From the NCBI GenBank assembly GCA_031255285.1, contig JAIRSU010000124.1, positions 1 through 44,360 on the forward strand: a stretch of DNA of 44,360 bases, in the 5' to 3' direction. The position numbers and the translations under genes are program-made. The notes below the pieces were generated by a model. That model was given only the letters and a program-made list of their open reading frames with translations. It had not been told where the DNA came from and made no database searches. This DNA is from Treponema sp. (GTDB taxonomy: Bacteria > Spirochaetota > Spirochaetia > Treponematales > Breznakiellaceae). Positions within the stretch are counted from its first letter, which is position 1, and each line of letters starts with the position of its first letter. Positions 31,494-41,159 of this stretch are shown here, piece by piece.

Positions 31494-33082
31494 GCATTCC
31501 GCGTCGCGAGTGTGACGATAGCAAATTTTTTTTTAGAAGGTTCTACTCGCTTTTATGCATTGCGTTATCGAGTACCATTTTTGTTTATTTGGTACACGGG
31601 CAAGAGTTGTACGAAGATAGTATATTGATGGAGGGTAATATTGATATAGATTCTCTGTTTGGGGAACCACATGAGTCGGTGGATGTTCAAAGGCCATCCA
31701 CACCTGTTCGTTCCGGTTTATTAGCTGTTGGAGAATTGACAGAGGGTAATATTGATATAGATTCTCTGTTTGGAGAATCGCCTGAGTCAGCGGCTTCGGC
31801 ACCAAAAGCGGTGGAGAATACGCCGCCTAAAGAGCCGCCCAAACAGCCGTCTATCATCGCAGTGATGAAGAGGAAAGGCTTTACTATGAAAACCGGTTAC
31901 AGTTTTTCGTTCGGTTCCTCAACGGGGTGGGAGGAATCACCATGGTTTTGGGGAGAAGAATATCAAGATAAGGATACGACAACTAAAAAGGTTAATGCGC
32001 CTCATACAACTACAGCCGATTTGTATTACACTTATCCTGGGGTTATTATGACCGCATCACTGGACTTCACCTATCAGATTTCAAACGAGCTGAAGGTAAC
32101 GAGCGCTTTTTCGTACTCGTTTCCAAGATTCACGTTTACCGTAGGCGACTTTTATTTTGATTATACGATCAAGAATAAAGTATTCTTTCGTGCGGGGCGT
32201 TTTACTTATAAATGGGGTGTTTCGACTAATTACCCTTACACCGACTTGTTGGCGCGTTTTCAGTCGCCTTCATGGTTTACAGAGCATACCTATAACAGAG
32301 CCACGAATCCATCCGGGGATTATTTTGGCTCCACGGCTGGTAAAAACGACATTTATAAGGCACGGGTAGACATTCCCATAGGTATAGGCGGGATACAAGC
32401 AATGATACGACTAAGAGATGACTTTTTTAACGAGCAGAATAAACGAAATGAACTGATCGCCTATGGCGGCAAGTACAACCTTGCCTTCAAATGGGCGGAT
32501 ATCAATATTGGCGCGCTATATCAGGCAATTCTTCCTCTGCGTAGCTTTCTTTCCTTAAAAAGCACTATAAAGGACACGGAAGTCTATGCGGAGGCAATGA
32601 TGTCTGCTCGGTACAAAAATTGGGATTATTGGACTTTGTCTTGGAATTTCGGCTTGTATCAGGACTTCTTTAAAAAAAAGCTTAGAGTAAATGGGGAAAT
32701 CTATTACAATGGTGAAAAAGACGCTTTTTGGGTGAGGGAGGCTGACCTAGAGAGAGGTAACTTGGAAGAGGAAAATTCACCTCTTATAGAAGGGTTTAAT
32801 TATATGGTGAATATCGTCTACAAACCGGGGTGGCACTCTTTGAATCTGGGGGTTAGAGCCGCTTATGCGATAGCTGAAAACACTGGAATGGTGGTGCCGG
32901 GAGTAAAATTTTCACCGTCTACAGGCGTTACCGTTTCGCTCGCGGTTCCATTTGCTTTCGGAAGCCGTCATGGGACGTATTATAGAGGTATGTCTAGTGA
33001 CTATAAGACATACAACAGACCTTTTAGCATTGTTCTGGGAGTGTCCATTGATGGTAGTTACAGTTGGGGAAAGTATGATTAA
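31490..33082 (+). CDS. predicted outer-membrane beta-barrel protein
   Basis: GTGA overlap with the LolA-like gene, hydrophobic N-terminus, C-terminal alternating strands; internal duplicated EGNIDIDSLFGE motif. Confidence 0.6.
   Translation: MSIPRRECDDSKFFFRRFYSLLCIALSSTIFVYLVHGQELYEDSILMEGNIDIDSLFGEPHESVDVQRPSTPVRSGLLAVGELTEGNIDIDSLFGESPESAASAPKAVENTPPKEPPKQPSIIAVMKRKGFTMKTGYSFSFGSSTGWEESPWFWGEEYQDKDTTTKKVNAPHTTTADLYYTYPGVIMTASLDFTYQISNELKVTSAFSYSFPRFTFTVGDFYFDYTIKNKVFFRAGRFTYKWGVSTNYPYTDLLARFQSPSWFTEHTYNRATNPSGDYFGSTAGKNDIYKARVDIPIGIGGIQAMIRLRDDFFNEQNKRNELIAYGGKYNLAFKWADINIGALYQAILPLRSFLSLKSTIKDTEVYAEAMMSARYKNWDYWTLSWNFGLYQDFFKKKLRVNGEIYYNGEKDAFWVREADLERGNLEEENSPLIEGFNYMVNIVYKPGWHSLNLGVRAAYAIAENTGMVVPGVKFSPSTGVTVSLAVPFAFGSRHGTYYRGMSSDYKTYNRPFSIVLGVSIDGSYSWGKYD
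31631..31779 (+). repeat. two near-identical about 34-nt direct repeats within the barrel CDS
   Basis: GAGGGTAATATTGATATAGATTCTCTGTTTGG(G/A)GAA at 31631 and 31742, offset 111 nt (37 codons). Confidence 0.95.
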
Positions 33083-33272
33083 TTTCTTTGATCCCCCCCC
33101 CCCCGTAGAATTCTTTGTGATAATAGGAAAGGGGGACGGGGAGGCGTTGTTTGAGGGAATCCCGGATTGTCCGGTTATTTTTTATTTTTTACAAGCGCCG
33201 CAAGAGCGTACTAGAGAGCGTTCTCTAAACGGTTTCCCTTATTTGGGTGGTGGCGTAACTATAGAGGAGTAG
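33075..33272 (+). other. 65-codon short ORF carrying a C12 tract, coupled to manC
   Basis: ATG overlaps the upstream stop (ATGATTAA); MINFFDPPPPVEFF...VTIEE*; stop 2 nt before the manC ATG. Confidence 0.45.
33093..33104 (+). repeat. poly-C homopolymer, 12 nt
   Basis: gatCCCCCCCCCCCCgtag. Confidence 0.97.
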
Positions 33273-33274
33273 GC

Positions 33275-34351
33275 ATGAAAACGACAGCCGTCATAATGGC
33301 AGGAGGCAGAGGAGAGCGTTTTTGGCCCACGAGCAGAGAGAAATGTCCGAAACAGTTTCATTCACTCACAGCAGATGGGAAAACGTTGCTCCAACTGACA
33401 AAAGAAAGAATAGTTGATATTGTACAGACTGAAGACATCTTTGTGGTAACGAATAAGAAATATGCGGATTTGGTACGCGAGCAATTGCCGGATGTACCGG
33501 TTGAAAACATACTTGCCGAGCCTGTAGATCGCAATACCGCACCGTGTGTTGGGTTTGCCGCAAGCGTGATAGAGAAAAAGTATGGCGACGCGGTGATGAT
33601 AGCGCTCCCAGCCGATCATCTTATAAAGTCAAGTACCTTGTTTTGTGATTCGTTAAAAGACGCTATTGATACTGCGGAAACAAGAGATGCGCTCGTTACC
33701 ATAGGCATCATGCCTGTGTATCCTGAAACAGGGTACGGGTATATCCATTTCAGTAAGAACGGTGGCAATATCTACAAAGTATTGAAATTCATCGAAAAAC
33801 CAGATTTTGATAAAGCAAAAGAATATTTCGATTCAGGCGAGTATTTGTGGAACAGCGGTATGTTCGTATGGAAGGCATCGGTCATCTTAAACGAAATGCA
33901 GAAATTGATGCCCAGCTTGATAGAAGGGCTTGAAAAAATAAAATACTGTTACCAAACAGAAGCTTTTGATAATATTCTTGAAGCTGTTTATCCGAGTTTT
34001 AAGCCACAATCCATAGATTATGGTGTCATGGAGAAAATAACGAGTTTGAACAGGGTTTACACCATACCGGGAAGTTTCGGATGGAACGACGTGGGAAGCT
34101 GGCTTGCCTTAGAACGGGTTCGTCCCATAGACAAGAACAATAACGCATTACAAGGAAACGTAGTCAACATAGACTGCCGCGACGTACTGGTCCGTGGAAG
34201 CGAAAAACGTCTGATTGCTCTTGTGGGTTTAGAGGGTATCGTAGTTGTAGATACAGATGACGCTCTGCTGGTTTGTAACAAAGAAAACACGCAAGATGTT
34301 AAAAAAGTCGTCGAGTTCTTGAAAACGTATGACAAGAAGGAATATTTATGA
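33275..34351 (+). CDS. manC: mannose-1-phosphate guanylyltransferase
   Basis: VIMAGGRGERFWPTSREKCPKQF, FVWKASVILNEM, IDYGVMEK, GWNDVGSW. Confidence 0.93.
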   Translation: MKTTAVIMAGGRGERFWPTSREKCPKQFHSLTADGKTLLQLTKERIVDIVQTEDIFVVTNKKYADLVREQLPDVPVENILAEPVDRNTAPCVGFAASVIEKKYGDAVMIALPADHLIKSSTLFCDSLKDAIDTAETRDALVTIGIMPVYPETGYGYIHFSKNGGNIYKVLKFIEKPDFDKAKEYFDSGEYLWNSGMFVWKASVILNEMQKLMPSLIEGLEKIKYCYQTEAFDNILEAVYPSFKPQSIDYGVMEKITSLNRVYTIPGSFGWNDVGSWLALERVRPIDKNNNALQGNVVNIDCRDVLVRGSEKRLIALVGLEGIVVVDTDDALLVCNKENTQDVKKVVEFLKTYDKKEYL

Positions 34352-35511
34352 ATATTGCCTTTAATATCCAGCCGTTACTGTCCGATACAAAAACAGGAGT
34401 TGGGTACGCGGAAGAACACCTTGTTAAAGCGTTGATAGCTCAAAATGCTTCCGATACGTTCTTTCTTGAATTTTTTAGTCAATTTGAAAAAAATGTGGAG
34501 AAAGTCAACTTTTACCTCAAGGAAAATGTAAGAACAAGTATTTGTAGTTTTTTTTATTGGGAGCTTTATCGATTGATATCCGCCTTGTTTCCCTTACCGT
34601 ACTGGTGGTTTTTTAGAACAAAAGCAGATGTCGCTCATTTTTTTAACTTCATCGTTCCCCCCGGCGTGAAAGGCAAAAAAATCGTTACTATACACGATCT
34701 CGCATTTAGACGTTTTCCGGAAACGGTGCGGGCGAAGACGAAGTATATGCTTAAGTGGGGTCTGGCGAAAGCCATAAAAAGAGCTGACAGAATCATAGCG
34801 GTTTCCGAATGGACGAAACGAGAAATTTTACGATTTTATCGCTATCCAGCAGAAAGAATCGATGTTGTTTACAATGGAGTCGATCCATGTGTCTACCGTA
34901 CCATGCTTGACCCTATGGATATAGAACGTGTGCGTAAACGGCGGTGTATTCCGGAGAGCTATATTCTCTATCTGGGAACTATTGAACCGCGGAAGAATCT
35001 GGAGCGCCTTATCAAAGCATACAGTCTATTGAAGAGCAAACACCCTGATTCACCTGCCCTAGTACTTGCAGGTAAGAAAGGCTGGTGTTACGAGCGTATT
35101 ATCCAAGCATATGAGGAAAGTGCGGCGCGTGAAAGTATCATTTGGATAGGCTATGTTGCAGAGGAAGAGAAACCGTTTCTGCTTGCCGGAGCCATATTTT
35201 TTTGTTTTCCTTCGCTTTATGAAGGCTTTGGAATGCCGATTCTAGAAGCTTTCGCCTGCGGAACACCTGTCTTGACCGCAAATAACTCTTCGCTCGCAGA
35301 GATCGCCGGAGACGCTGCTTTTTTTGTAGATGCCTTGTCAATACAAGATATATGCGATAAACTAGAACAAATGTATATCAATGTAGACGTTCGGGCAAAT
35401 TTGCGCCAGAAAGGTTTAGAGCGAGTAAAACAATTCTCTTGGGAGAAGTCCGCCGAAAAGCTTCATAGTATATATGAGACGGTACTTAAAGAAGAGGTAA
35501 GTTATGGATGA
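34348..35511 (+). CDS. glycosyltransferase family 4
   Basis: ADRIIAVSEWTKREILRFY, YLGTIEPRKNLERLI, PSLYEGFGMPILEAFACGTPVLTAN. Confidence 0.92.
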   Translation: MNIAFNIQPLLSDTKTGVGYAEEHLVKALIAQNASDTFFLEFFSQFEKNVEKVNFYLKENVRTSICSFFYWELYRLISALFPLPYWWFFRTKADVAHFFNFIVPPGVKGKKIVTIHDLAFRRFPETVRAKTKYMLKWGLAKAIKRADRIIAVSEWTKREILRFYRYPAERIDVVYNGVDPCVYRTMLDPMDIERVRKRRCIPESYILYLGTIEPRKNLERLIKAYSLLKSKHPDSPALVLAGKKGWCYERIIQAYEESAARESIIWIGYVAEEEKPFLLAGAIFFCFPSLYEGFGMPILEAFACGTPVLTANNSSLAEIAGDAAFFVDALSIQDICDKLEQMYINVDVRANLRQKGLERVKQFSWEKSAEKLHSIYETVLKEEVSYG

Positions 35512-36631
35512 TAAGATAAAAGTACTTCAAGTGAATAAATTTTACGCACCGTGGGTAGGAGGAGTAGAACGAGTAGTTCAAGATATAGCGGAAGCCTTAA
35601 GCGGCAAGGCTGACATGAGAACACTTGTTTGTCAGCCCAAAGGGAAAGGTATAACAGAAGTATACAACGGGGTATCTGTAACCCGTGTGTCGAGTTTTGG
35701 AATCTTGTACTCTATGCCCATATCTCTTGATTTTTTTTGGAAACTCAGAAAAATGTCTAAAGATGCCGACATTCTCCAGTTCCATAGTCCATTTCCCTTG
35801 AGTGACTTTGCATATCTTTTATCTGGTTACAAGGGAAGGGTGGTCATCTGGTGGCACAGTGACATAATCAACCAGCAGTTTTTGGCGAAATTAATTAAGC
35901 CGATTAGCCGCTTGTTCCTTAAACGAGCGGATTTAATCATCGTAGCGACGAAGAATCATATTGAAAGTTCCGATCTTCTGAAGCCGTTCGCCTCAAAATG
36001 TAAAATTATTCCGTTTGGCTTGAAGTTTCCTGATTTCGAACACATCGGTGTGGTGAATTTCTTAACAGGGAAGCTCGCGAACCCCGGTAGCAAGAAACTG
36101 CTCTTTGTTGGTCGGGTCGTATACTACAAGGGCGTAGATGTTCTCATCAACGCGATGAGCAAGGTAAACGGTGCGGAGCTTTTTATCGCTGGGAGCGGCG
36201 TACTGGAAAGCGATTATAAAATGCTCGCTGAAAAGAACGGTGTGATAGATAAGGTGCATTTCTTGGGGTACTTGTCGTTTGAGATGTTGAAATCCGCGTA
36301 CAAAGACTGTGATATTTTCGTATTCCCGTCTATTGCGAATATCGAGGCTTTCGGCATCGCGCAGATGGAGGCGATGTTTTACGGCAAACCAGTGGTGAAC
36401 ACCGACTTACCGACTGGCGTACCGATAGTAAGCCTGCACGGAGAAACTGGATTCACAGTAAAGCCCGGCGACCCTGGCGTGCTTGCGTCTGCGATTCAGC
36501 GTTTAGTAGACGACGAGGCGCTCCGTCTGCAATTCGGGGAGAATGCTGCGAAACGTGTGAGAGAAAATTTTGATATCGAGAAGATGATTGACAGTCTATA
36601 CGCTGAATATGAGAAACTAATACAAAGATAG
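35504..36631 (+). CDS. glycosyltransferase family 4
   Basis: FYAPWVGGVERVVQDIAEAL, LLFVGRVVYYKGVDVLINA, FPSIANIEAFGIAQMEAMFYGKPVV. Confidence 0.93.
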   Translation: MDDKIKVLQVNKFYAPWVGGVERVVQDIAEALSGKADMRTLVCQPKGKGITEVYNGVSVTRVSSFGILYSMPISLDFFWKLRKMSKDADILQFHSPFPLSDFAYLLSGYKGRVVIWWHSDIINQQFLAKLIKPISRLFLKRADLIIVATKNHIESSDLLKPFASKCKIIPFGLKFPDFEHIGVVNFLTGKLANPGSKKLLFVGRVVYYKGVDVLINAMSKVNGAELFIAGSGVLESDYKMLAEKNGVIDKVHFLGYLSFEMLKSAYKDCDIFVFPSIANIEAFGIAQMEAMFYGKPVVNTDLPTGVPIVSLHGETGFTVKPGDPGVLASAIQRLVDDEALRLQFGENAAKRVRENFDIEKMIDSLYAEYEKLIQR

Positions 36632-36645
36632 GAGAAATTGGTAAA

Positions 36646-37740
36646 ATGGATTATTTAATAGTGGGGGCGGGCTTATTCGGTGCTGTCTTCGCCCATTCCA
36701 TCCGTGCGCGGGGAAAGTCATGTTTAGTTATAGATAAACGTCCGCATATCGCAGGGAATATCTACACTCAAATAGTGGACCGTGTCAATGTCCACAAATA
36801 CGGTGCTCATATTTTTCATACCGGAGACAAGACTGTATGGAGTTACATCAACCAATTTGCGGAATTTAACAACTTTGTGAATTCGCCCATTGCGGTCTAC
36901 CATGAAGAATTATTTAATTTGCCATTCAACATGAACACGTTCAACAAGCTATGGGGAGTTAAGACACCCACAGAGGCGAAGGCAGTTATAAAGAAACAGA
37001 GAGAAGAAGTAAATGCCGCGGAGCCGCGCAATCTTGAAGAACAAGCGCTTTCCCTCGTGGGGCGAGATATTTACGAAAAACTAATCAAAGGCTATACGGA
37101 AAAACAATGGGGAAAGCCGTGTACGGAATTGCCCGCCTTCATCATAAGACGAGTGCCTCTGCGATGGACGTTTGATAATAATTATTTTAACGACCCATAT
37201 CAAGGAATACCGATAGGAGGATATACTCCCATTATTGAGAAGATGCTTGACGAGTGTGAAGTCAAACTGAACGTTGATTATTTTGACTTCATAAAGAAAA
37301 ACAAAGGTGTCGCAAATAAAACTATATTTAGCGGCGCAATAGACGAATTTTTTGGGTATGAGTTCGGTGAATTAGAGTATCGTTCTTTAAGATTCGAATC
37401 CGAGATGCTTGATATCGACAACTATCAAGGCGTTGCAGTGGTCAATTACACTGACAAAGAGACGCCATGGACGCGCATCATTGAGCATAAACACTTCGAA
37501 TTCGGTGGGCAATCCTCGACGGTTATTACCCGTGAATACCCTGCCGAGTGGAGGCGGGGACTTGAGCCGTATTACCCTGTCAACGACGAAAGAAATAGCG
37601 TTCTGTATCAGAAATATAGAGCGTTAGCCGACGAGAGGGACGACGTTGTTTTCGGCGGCAGACTAGGACGATACGCGTATCTTGATATGGATAAAATTAT
37701 AGCGTCCGCGCTTAAAGCGGCCGCGGAGGAGGAATTATGA
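36646..37740 (+). CDS. glf: UDP-galactopyranose mutase
   Basis: DYLIVGAGLFGAVFAHSIRARGKSCLVIDKRPHIAGNIYT, KYGAHIFHT, GYTEKQWGK, SLRFE. Confidence 0.96.
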   Translation: MDYLIVGAGLFGAVFAHSIRARGKSCLVIDKRPHIAGNIYTQIVDRVNVHKYGAHIFHTGDKTVWSYINQFAEFNNFVNSPIAVYHEELFNLPFNMNTFNKLWGVKTPTEAKAVIKKQREEVNAAEPRNLEEQALSLVGRDIYEKLIKGYTEKQWGKPCTELPAFIIRRVPLRWTFDNNYFNDPYQGIPIGGYTPIIEKMLDECEVKLNVDYFDFIKKNKGVANKTIFSGAIDEFFGYEFGELEYRSLRFESEMLDIDNYQGVAVVNYTDKETPWTRIIEHKHFEFGGQSSTVITREYPAEWRRGLEPYYPVNDERNSVLYQKYRALADERDDVVFGGRLGRYAYLDMDKIIASALKAAAEEEL

Positions 37741-38507
37741 TTTTGATGGATAAAATAAAACAATACCGTTTTTTATTTGCGGAGTTAGTTAAGCGGGATT
37801 TCAGTGCGAAGTACAAAAGTACTTTCCTGGGGATGATATGGAGTATGATAATGCCGTTGGTAGAATTAGCGATAATGTACTTTATCTTCGGGTATCTCTT
37901 CGGCAGAACAATACACTTCACCGTATTTATATTTTGCGGACGTATGGTATATTCATTTTTCAACGAATCCACAACGTCTGGTATGCACTCGCTTTTAAGC
38001 AACGTGGGCATCTTTTCCCAGTTAAACGTTCCAAAATATATCTTCTTATTGTCGAAAAACGTATCTTCGCTTATCAATTTCGGGTTAGAGTTAATAATCT
38101 TCTTTATATTCATCGCCTTGGACAAGCTACCGTTTACGGGGAAATTCTTTTTTTTGTTGTACCCCATCGGTTGCTTAATCCTTTTCAATTTAGGCGTAGG
38201 ACTGATACTATCAGCACTCTACATATTTTTCCGGGATATGACGTATCTCTACGGTATATTCACCCATGTCTTGATGTTTTTCTCGGCTATTTTCTACGAG
38301 GTAGACAGATTTCCTGAAAGCCTACAGAGTATATTTTTATTCAACCCCATCTACATCTATATAAAATATTTCAGGAGTATTGTGATAGACTCGCAAATTC
38401 CGAGTCTCGGACTGCACCTCGCTGGACTAGGATACGCGCTTGTTTTCCTACTCTTGGGAATGTTTATGTATAAAAAATACAATTACAAATTCTTATATTA
38501 CATTTAG
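37737..38507 (+). CDS. wzm: ABC-2 polysaccharide export permease (Wzm)
   Basis: VKRDFSAKYKSTFLGMIWSMIMPLVELAIMYFIFGYLFG; six TM segments. Confidence 0.88.
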   Translation: MILMDKIKQYRFLFAELVKRDFSAKYKSTFLGMIWSMIMPLVELAIMYFIFGYLFGRTIHFTVFIFCGRMVYSFFNESTTSGMHSLLSNVGIFSQLNVPKYIFLLSKNVSSLINFGLELIIFFIFIALDKLPFTGKFFFLLYPIGCLILFNLGVGLILSALYIFFRDMTYLYGIFTHVLMFFSAIFYEVDRFPESLQSIFLFNPIYIYIKYFRSIVIDSQIPSLGLHLAGLGYALVFLLLGMFMYKKYNYKFLYYI

Positions 38508-38516
38508 GAGAAAAAA

Positions 38517-39248
38517 ATGATAGAAGTAAACGACGTTTCTATTCGTTACATAGTCGGTGATTTTAAAGATATTGGGATAAAAGAGTTTATAATGAAGAAG
38601 CTTACTGGCGACTATCACGTACATGAATTTTGGGCTGTAGATGGCGTATCTTTTTCTTTACAGAAAGGAGAGCTCCTCGGTATAATCGGGAGAAACGGAG
38701 CGGGAAAGTCTACCCTGCTCAAGGCTATTTCGCAAATCATGATACCAACGAAAGGGACTATTAAAGTAGAAGGAAAGGTAGTCCCCCTGTTCGGCTTTGG
38801 GACTGGGCTTATCGGTGACTTGACGGTGCGGGACAACATATTCCTACGCGGAGCCCTGCTTGGATATTCTCGGGAGTTTATCAACGAAAAATACCCGGAA
38901 ATTCTTGATTTTTCGGAACTCGGTCCTTTTGAATACCGCCGTGTCAAACACCTATCGTCGGGCATGGTCGGGCGGCTTGCGTTCTCTATATCCTGCTTTA
39001 TTGAGCCTGAGATACTAATTCTGGACGAAGTATTTGCGTCTGGGGACGGTGCATTCGGTGTGAAAAGCGAAAAGAAGATGATGGAAATCATTAACAGCGG
39101 TATAACAGTCATACTCGTTACCCATTCAACCGGCAGAGCTCGGAATATATGCACAAAAGCTCTGTGGCTCGACCGTGGTAAGCAAGTTGCTTTTGGCGAT
39201 CCAGCCGAAGTATGCACCCAGTATGAAGAATTTCTGAAAAGCAAATAA
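38517..39248 (+). CDS. wzt: polysaccharide export ATPase (Wzt), no C-terminal carbohydrate-binding domain
   Basis: GIIGRNGAGKSTLLKAISQIMIPTKGTI, HLSSGMVGRLAFSISC, ILILDEVFASGD; only 243 aa. Confidence 0.9.
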   Translation: MIEVNDVSIRYIVGDFKDIGIKEFIMKKLTGDYHVHEFWAVDGVSFSLQKGELLGIIGRNGAGKSTLLKAISQIMIPTKGTIKVEGKVVPLFGFGTGLIGDLTVRDNIFLRGALLGYSREFINEKYPEILDFSELGPFEYRRVKHLSSGMVGRLAFSISCFIEPEILILDEVFASGDGAFGVKSEKKMMEIINSGITVILVTHSTGRARNICTKALWLDRGKQVAFGDPAEVCTQYEEFLKSK

Positions 39249-39365: not shown

Positions 39366-41159
39366 ATGCTGACGCTTCAAGAAATTCAGTTCCCTCCAGT
39401 CGGAGATGCTTATAATGATATGTATATACGCGGCGGTATTAAGAATCGCCGTCTAGACTCTGCGGAGAAGCTTCTCTTTGCGCCGCAAGGCGAAACCATT
39501 ACTTTTGACACATATTTCAACTCGTTTTCTTATGAAAAATGGCGGAGGTACACGGTTTTGGAGACTGTTTTGGTAGAACTGCGCCTACGCGGGACCTTTG
39601 AGGTTGCACTTATCCAGTGGGTATTAGGCGAGAAACCTGAGCGGTTTGTTTTGCATGGAGAGAAGGTTCAAGCCGGCGCGTTTACCAAGAAAGTTTTTAC
39701 CTTTGAGCCGCTCTACGAGCAGGGAATCCTTGCGTTTGAACTGAAAGCCCTGTCTGAAGATGCGGTTTTCTGCGGTGGCGCGTACATAACAGAAGAAGCC
39801 GCCGCGCGTGAGGTGAACATAGCGTTTTGTATCTGTACGTTTCGACGGGAAGCATTCATCAAGCGGACTCTTGCAGAGTTGGAGAGCCTACAGGCAGGCG
39901 TTTTGAAGGACCACTGGCGGTGTTATGTAGCGGATAACGGTCAGACACTGGATGTGGAGGTGCTTTCCGGTGAGAGGGTGCGAATTTTGCCGAACAGGAA
40001 CGGAGGCGGTTCCGCGGGATTCACTCGCGCTATGCTTGCGGCGCTTGATGAACGGGAGAGTCGCGGGTTGACTCATTGCCTGCTCATGGACGACGACGTA
40101 GTCTTCACCCATTATGCGGTTGAGCGCATGAGCGTGTTTCTGCGCCTGCTCAAGGAAGAATACCATGATGCGATATTCGGCGGTGCAATGCTCTTGCTCG
40201 ATAAGCCTGACGTCCAGTGGGAATCAGGTGCGCGAATTGGTATAGACGACTTAACACCGCTTAAAAGCGGATACTGTCTGTCTTCTTTAACCGACGTTTT
40301 GAAGAACGAAGTTGAAAAAAACATAAATTATTTTGCATGGTATTTTTGTTGTTTCCCTTTGAACGACGATTTGCGAAAGAGCCTGCCCCTGCCGCTTTTC
40401 TTTCAATACGACGATACGGAATTCAGCCTGCGCAGCCATGCACGGCGCAAGATCACCCTGAACGGAGTATGCGTCTGGCACGAATCCTTTGACAAGAAGT
40501 ACTCCGCAACCAAAGATTGCTATTATGGAATACGTAATCGCCTTGTTACGCTTGCGCTTCATCCAGAGACGTTCCACGACGCTTTTTCGAAAAGATGGGT
40601 TAAAAGTTTTCTGCTTAAAAAAACAGTGTTTCGTTTGCTCACCTATCGTTACAAAGATGCGGAATTGATCGTCCGAGCCGCCGAAGACTTTCTACGCGGT
40701 ATTGATTGGCTTGGTTCCATGGACCCGGAGGCGCTCAACCGTGAGATTGTGGATGCAGGAGAGCCGCTTTTAGCTTTCGAAACCATACCCGCAGGCTTTG
40801 ATTCCCGCCCAAGAGCGCCGCGAAACCCGCCGTCTAAAAGCAAATTGCTCCGTCTATGGCGTTTTTATCTGCTTAACGGACTATTTTTCCCTTCATGGAG
40901 GAGCCTTACTCTCTCCGAGCAGGATGCGCGCTGGCGAAACTTCTTCTTTATTCGGCGGGTGGTCTTCTTCAACCCGTGGACGCGCAAAGGTTATGTTGTG
41001 GAAAAAAGCTTCCTGCGTATATTTAAGATTCTGGGACAGTTGCTGCGACTCTTCGTCAAGATTGACAAGTCTTTCACATATACGGTGAAGCAGTACCAAG
41101 AGCGGTTTCCTGCGGTCGTCTCAGAAGACTTTTGGCGTGAATTTCTGCACCTAAATTAA
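39366..41159 (+). CDS. GlfT2-like galactofuranosyltransferase (GT2)
   Basis: N-terminal beta-rich domain plus GT2: FCICTFRREAFIKRTLAELE, LPNRNGGGSAGFTRAM, LLMDDDVVF, YFAWYFCCFP, FFQYDDTEFSLR, GVCVWHE. Confidence 0.85.
   Translation: MLTLQEIQFPPVGDAYNDMYIRGGIKNRRLDSAEKLLFAPQGETITFDTYFNSFSYEKWRRYTVLETVLVELRLRGTFEVALIQWVLGEKPERFVLHGEKVQAGAFTKKVFTFEPLYEQGILAFELKALSEDAVFCGGAYITEEAAAREVNIAFCICTFRREAFIKRTLAELESLQAGVLKDHWRCYVADNGQTLDVEVLSGERVRILPNRNGGGSAGFTRAMLAALDERESRGLTHCLLMDDDVVFTHYAVERMSVFLRLLKEEYHDAIFGGAMLLLDKPDVQWESGARIGIDDLTPLKSGYCLSSLTDVLKNEVEKNINYFAWYFCCFPLNDDLRKSLPLPLFFQYDDTEFSLRSHARRKITLNGVCVWHESFDKKYSATKDCYYGIRNRLVTLALHPETFHDAFSKRWVKSFLLKKTVFRLLTYRYKDAELIVRAAEDFLRGIDWLGSMDPEALNREIVDAGEPLLAFETIPAGFDSRPRAPRNPPSKSKLLRLWRFYLLNGLFFPSWRSLTLSEQDARWRNFFFIRRVVFFNPWTRKGYVVEKSFLRIFKILGQLLRLFVKIDKSFTYTVKQYQERFPAVVSEDFWREFLHLN

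Follow-up and report, generated by a model that had tools for sequence, protein, structure and literature searches.

The window, a stretch of 44,360 nucleotides that forms part of a 2.15-Mb draft genome of a Treponema sp. (G000), carries on its forward strand a gene for an outer-membrane beta-barrel protein followed by manC and a series of further genes for glycan synthesis and transport (Table 1). The data used here are metagenome assemblies, and this treponeme and the nearest Treponema sp. metagenome-assembled genomes are probably of termite-gut origin, the host being our deduction. The barrel protein gave no Pfam match; its AlphaFold model, which is of low confidence (pLDDT 55), contains the strands of a beta-barrel, and its top PDB fold matches are porins. 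That the genes downstream are glycan genes had been proposed in an earlier note on this DNA, and the Pfam matches bear this out, giving an operon for glycan synthesis and export. From the predicted functions of its members (manC, two glycosyltransferases, glf, the ABC transporter and GlfT), it is an operon for a mannose/galactofuranose glycan with ABC export.

Table 1. Features of the barrel gene, leader and glycan operon (positions in the window)
Feature	Position	Strand	Basis or remark
Outer-membrane beta-barrel protein, 530 aa	31490..33082	+	ORF list, AlphaFold model, fold matches
Leader ORF, 65 codons	33075..33272	+	ATG overlaps barrel-gene stop; stop 2 nt before manC
C12 homopolymer tract	33093..33104	+	C12, C13 and C11 in three sister species
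TAG closing leader ORF on loss of one C	33106..33108	+	Sequence reading, phase test
GATAAT, −10-like hexamer, possible promoter element	33119..33124	+	14 nt past tract
TGA closing leader ORF on gain of one C	33152..33154	+	Sequence reading, phase test
Terminator-like hairpin CCGGATTGTCCGG with T-rich tail	33162..33190	+	Pattern scan
Shine-Dalgarno sequence of manC, GAGGAG	33264..33269	+	Invariant in four-species alignment
manC, mannose-1-phosphate guanylyltransferase	33275..34351	+	Pfam NTP_transferase, ManC_GMP_beta-helix
Two GT4-type glycosyltransferases	34348..36631 (34348-35511, 35504-36631)	+	Pfam Glycos_transf_1
UDP-galactopyranose mutase (glf)	36646..37740	+	Pfam GLF, 1.2e-81
ABC-2 permease and ATPase, polysaccharide export type	37737..39248 (37737-38507, 38517-39248)	+	Pfam ABC2_membrane, ABC_tran
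GlfT2-like galactofuranosyltransferase	39366..41159	+	Pfam Glft2_N, Glycos_transf_2

Between the barrel gene and manC lies a tract of 12 C residues, the sole run of at least eight C or G residues in the window, in which chance alone would produce even a C8 only about 0.5 times; a tract of this length is beyond chance. It is contained in a leader ORF whose ATG, in the overlap with the barrel-gene stop (ATGATTAA), lies 18 nt ahead of the tract and has GGGGA a few nucleotides further upstream, so that a start codon and a ribosome-binding site are both present. The boundaries and frames previously described for this ORF, which begins inside the barrel stop and ends just before manC, hold, and C12 does occupy its codons 7–10, encoding PPPP. 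The leader frame differs from that of manC, and the TAG that closes it precedes the manC ATG. Loss of one C leads, as had been claimed, to an immediate CCG TAG, after 10 codons; gain of one C does lead to a TGA, but this comes after 26 codons and thus about 16 codons past the tract, not about 20. In this genome, then, C11 stops at 33108 and C13 at 33154, both ahead of the hairpin at 33162–33174, and C12 reads to 33272. The hairpin is weak: its 5-bp stem comes from a scan that gives equally frequent matches in shuffled sequence, its pairs are 89.5% kept across the four species compared below with no two-sided compensatory change among them, and attenuators are not enriched as a general part of tract leaders (2 of 12, 1.4 expected). 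A search of the window against Rfam gave no match, and a search for the leader as part of a dispersed repeat found short matches only, the rest of the genome having no full copy.

In three sister species the genes are in the same order, with a tract at the same site. The assembled lengths are C12 in the genome under study, C12 in G011, C13 in G010 and C11 in G009; they are consensus values of assemblies and represent differences between species. A close manC is found in only four of the 12 same-genus genomes, namely these four; in seven of the eight others the barrel gene was found, with a glycosyltransferase within about 30 nt after it and no tract. Every such locus found in relatives without manC thus lacks the tract, which suggests that leader, tract and manC were acquired jointly. 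The leader has diverged by 13–22% while the tract is kept in all four species. Between the genome under study and G011, substitutions in the leader ORF are spread evenly over the codon positions (6/25, 5/27 and 6/27), and those in the first 300 nt of manC are concentrated at third positions (5, 2 and 29). By this measure the leader peptide is not under purifying selection and, as a peptide, is not a gene.

At their assembled tract lengths the sister species have an interrupted leader ORF, on which ground the leader-ORF model was at one stage rejected; that rejection was reversed by re-phasing of the tract and by the genus-wide test described below. On re-phasing, exactly one of the three phases opens the leader ORF in each of the four species, and the open phase ends 2, 2, 15 and 16 nt before manC. 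The lengths that give it are C12 in the genome under study (as assembled), C13 in G011, C14 in G010 and C13 in G009, or three fewer C residues. Alignment columns were permuted in a way that preserves relatedness and gaps, with margins picked after the fact; all four species are open at margins of 20, 30 and 45 nt (P 0.0001–0.0085), three at 18 nt (P about 0.01) and two at 12 nt (P 0.06). Because the ON length varies by species, C12 itself is not special. The proposal that only the C12 frame carries ribosomes to manC is partly supported, in that a single phase per species opens to near manC, but the length concerned depends on the species, and manC has a strong, invariant Shine-Dalgarno sequence of its own, which makes a strict dependence on the leader ORF doubtful.

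Tracts of this kind are not confined to the manC leader. In the genome under study, C or G runs of at least 9 occur at 60 places, with a mode of 11 and no such class for A/T runs, and between 36 and 180 such C/G runs were counted in other genomes of the genus. Most tracts of at least 10 outside genes are followed by a gene that is read on the C strand, and intergenic C-tract leaders were therefore tested for open frames. The test covered leaders of 80–260 nt in four genomes of the genus, with genes called by a home-made gene caller, and dinucleotide shuffles as the null; a frame counted as open if no stop lay between the tract and a point 18 nt ahead of the gene. On the sense strand 35 of the 43 leaders were open, as against 11.7 in shuffles (largest of 200 shuffles, 17). 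Little or no excess of open frames was seen on the antisense strand of the tract leaders (12 open, 7.4 expected) or in upstream regions without a tract (32/114 open, 27.3 expected). After homologous leaders and genes were collapsed, the count was 22.5/29 vs 6.6 (p about 6e-6 vs controls). The test arose by exploration, and the pattern then recurred in two more genomes from the genus, added after it had been seen (G002, 9/9 open with 4.0 expected; G011, 6/7 with 1.6 expected). Raw counts of stop trinucleotides fall short on either strand and in almost every region, for which reason it is frame-wise openness alone that is informative.

Relative to the downstream gene, 12 of the open leader frames are in frame, and 13 and 20 are in the two other frames; in the absence of a strong frame preference, the open leaders are mostly not misplaced N-termini. 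The out-of-frame leaders stop no more than 25 nt past the gene ATG in 29 of 33 cases. Stops near the ATG occur in 85% of out-of-frame leaders vs 50% in controls for one phase and in 90% vs 82% for the other, and an ATG within 60 nt upstream that is open to the tract occurs in 28/42 tract leaders vs 51/114 controls, so that both the stops near the gene and the starts before the tract are modestly enriched. As a class, tract leaders do not have gene-like codon usage, which is as expected if only openness matters.

Genes associated with tracts include those for lipoproteins, Ig-domain proteins, glycosyltransferases, a histidine kinase, an adenylate cyclase and TetR and AraC regulators, and a paralogous family with an HU-like DNA-binding domain and DUF4469 (L069, L079 and L221, and L095 and L172) recurs behind C-tract leaders. 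Some tracts of the genome under study lie within genes and look like ordinary coding contingency loci: at L083:2064-2075 (G000 C52) a C12 falls a few codons past the lipobox cysteine of a solute-binding lipoprotein, and at L077:2053-2063 (G000 C36) a G11 directly follows the signal peptide of a GH18 (chitinase-type) protein, the assembled length being in frame in both. A G follows 93% of the tracts in this genome, coding and non-coding alike, vs about 37% for runs of C4; the most frequent tract length is 11 here and 12 in G010. The sequence around the tract also recurs within genomes: G019, of another genus of the same family, has about 300 runs of at least nine C residues (loci L123-L152), many of them in the arrangement TTTCTG-C11-GTCCCnCACTTTTTCG upstream of genes, and G010 has a different context (L165, L182, L162 and L178), in which C11–13 is followed by ARTTTT or similar, partly GCCC..GGGCTGGT. 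Many tracts are found close to the end of a contig, at no more than about 300 bp (e.g. G000 C1, C5, C26, C31, C38, C40 and C86), some of them in near-identical paralogous contexts, which suggests that repeats broke the assembly. Near-identical paralogous copies of a tract were also considered as a record of slippage, but with one family of three (lengths 11, 12 and 11) they were too few.

We hypothesize that the C12 tract, lying in a leader ORF, is a contingency locus prone to slippage that gates the manC–glycan operon, and we hold this to be somewhat probable. What is directly seen is that the tract is conserved but differs in length from species to species, that each species has one open phase and that open leaders are in excess across the genus; from sequence of this kind we infer slippage within populations, translation of the leader and an effect on expression. 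Slippage would set the frame in which ribosomes exit the tract. In the ON phase, ribosomes that start at the ATG overlapping the barrel gene would pass the terminator-like hairpin and come close to the start of manC; either other phase would stop them earlier, which in the genome under study means ahead of the hairpin. Where translation of the leader is lost, expression of the manC operon would be lowered through loss of translational coupling, termination at the hairpin or polarity, and the outcome would be ON and OFF sub-populations in surface glycan. The idea that the tract is a phase-variation switch had been put forward in the earlier note, and it is strengthened by the interspecies tract lengths and the genus-wide open leaders, and also by the coding tracts placed next to a lipobox or signal peptide elsewhere in the genome and by the glycan operon downstream; the peptide is nonetheless free of purifying selection, and a promoter role of the opc or tpr type is possible. 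The leader-frame switch and a promoter layer may coexist. Extended to the genus, the hypothesis is that C11–13 tracts in stop-free, unconserved leaders form a class that gates many envelope, glycan and other genes by frame alone, the peptides being free to drift because the tract can re-phase any leader frameshift; this extension we put forward tentatively, its chances of being right or wrong appearing to us nearly balanced.

The main rival, in our judgement rather unlikely, is that the locus is a case of promoter phase variation like that of opc, in which poly-C is described as covering the −35 region (PMC7864442). The tract would here lie over the −35, GATAAT would be the −10, tract length would tune manC transcription and the open leader would be incidental. 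GATA(A/C)T is present 12–14 nt past the tract in all four species, a promoter would suit the predominance of intergenic tracts ahead of genes on the C strand, and a strict pattern from tract to TATAMT occurs 20 times in 12 genomes of the genus vs 0 when reversed. The enrichment of −10-like hexamers 10–17 nt past the tract seemed strong as well (21/44 vs 3.9 by shuffle) but was at first over-rated, since with the local AT-rich stretch shuffled alone it falls to about two-fold (13/43 vs 6.3, P 0.003; the two sets of loci overlap and are not identical). A promoter at this position also leaves the sense-strand open frames from tract to gene unexplained, and would have the hairpin between its proposed start site and manC.

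The frame-specific and strand-specific nature of the open leaders likewise argues against the tract being a by-product of a genus-wide mutational equilibrium that holds C runs near 11–12, with no effect on manC, as does the retention of this site's tract in four species in spite of the divergence of the leader around it. We consider such a by-product improbable, even though tracts are abundant in the genus, the species-wide modal lengths suggest a global mutational optimum, the G after the tract is found whatever the tract's location, and few tract positions are common to the genome under study and the sampled G010 tracts. Lastly, the poly-C or a structured leader might act at the RNA level, independently of frame, as a Rho-loading or stability element on read-through transcripts of the barrel gene. 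The hairpin with its T-rich tail would fit, as would a weak consensus structure of the leader (alifold −21.05 vs a null of −15.7, with 11 of 200 as low), but the z-scores for folding range from weak to moderate (−0.65 to −2.6), the upstream neighbour of many tracts is a divergent gene whose transcript does not cross them, and the frame-specific signal is again left unexplained. An effect of this kind seems to us very improbable.

The proposed leader-frame switch has features in common with several known systems. Like the tracts of N. meningitidis opc and porA/fetA, the tract is an intergenic poly-C of about 12 upstream of a surface gene with a −10-like hexamer nearby, whereas the accessible text of the sources on those genes describes no open leader frame, and the promoter here is putative (PMC7864442; PMC2791445); the same texts disagree on the site of the opc tract, one placing it over the −35 and the other between −35 and −10. 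Among spirochetes, T. pallidum also has G/C homopolymers before envelope genes (tprE/G/J, tp0126 and tprL), and the length of its promoter poly-G tracts varies in vivo; these tracts are poly-G of 7–11 within promoters, in contrast to the poly-C of 11–13 followed by a stop-free leader found here (PMC7864442). In the pilus switches of Bifidobacterium breve, too, a G/C tract lies where a short upstream ORF meets a surface operon, the G-tract gating the pilus operon and one of the upstream ORFs also being of 65 codons, although slippage there joins the upstream ORF and the pilin gene in one frame, and the present leader is out of frame and stops before manC (PMC9187656). The closest worked-out case is pil1 of Streptococcus gallolyticus, in which repeat number changes the length of a leader peptide and the ribosome opens a terminator, and in which, as in pil3, the state is low when the leader stops well before the hairpin and high when it stops at the hairpin or beyond (PMC3894217). 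As in pil1 and pil3, a change in repeat number within a short leader ORF would shift the stop relative to a hairpin before a surface operon; the repeats there are GCAGA at two pilus loci, and those here are poly-C at many loci in the genus. The terminator of pil1 has been shown experimentally, whereas the hairpin here is weak and is absent from most other tract leaders. The open phase here, unlike that of pil1, reaches the downstream start, so that coupling may matter more.

Phase variation through tracts in promoters or in coding genes is well known. In the literature searched, switching through leader ORFs is represented by isolated cases, S. gallolyticus pil1 and pil3 among them. The pattern described here gives, for each locus, a prediction of which tract length is ON, and it offers a search rule for such switches in unannotated genomes, namely stop-free leaders downstream of a tract. 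If it holds, a lineage of gut-symbiont treponemes would use leader-frame switching at many loci, including a galactofuranose/mannose surface-glycan operon.
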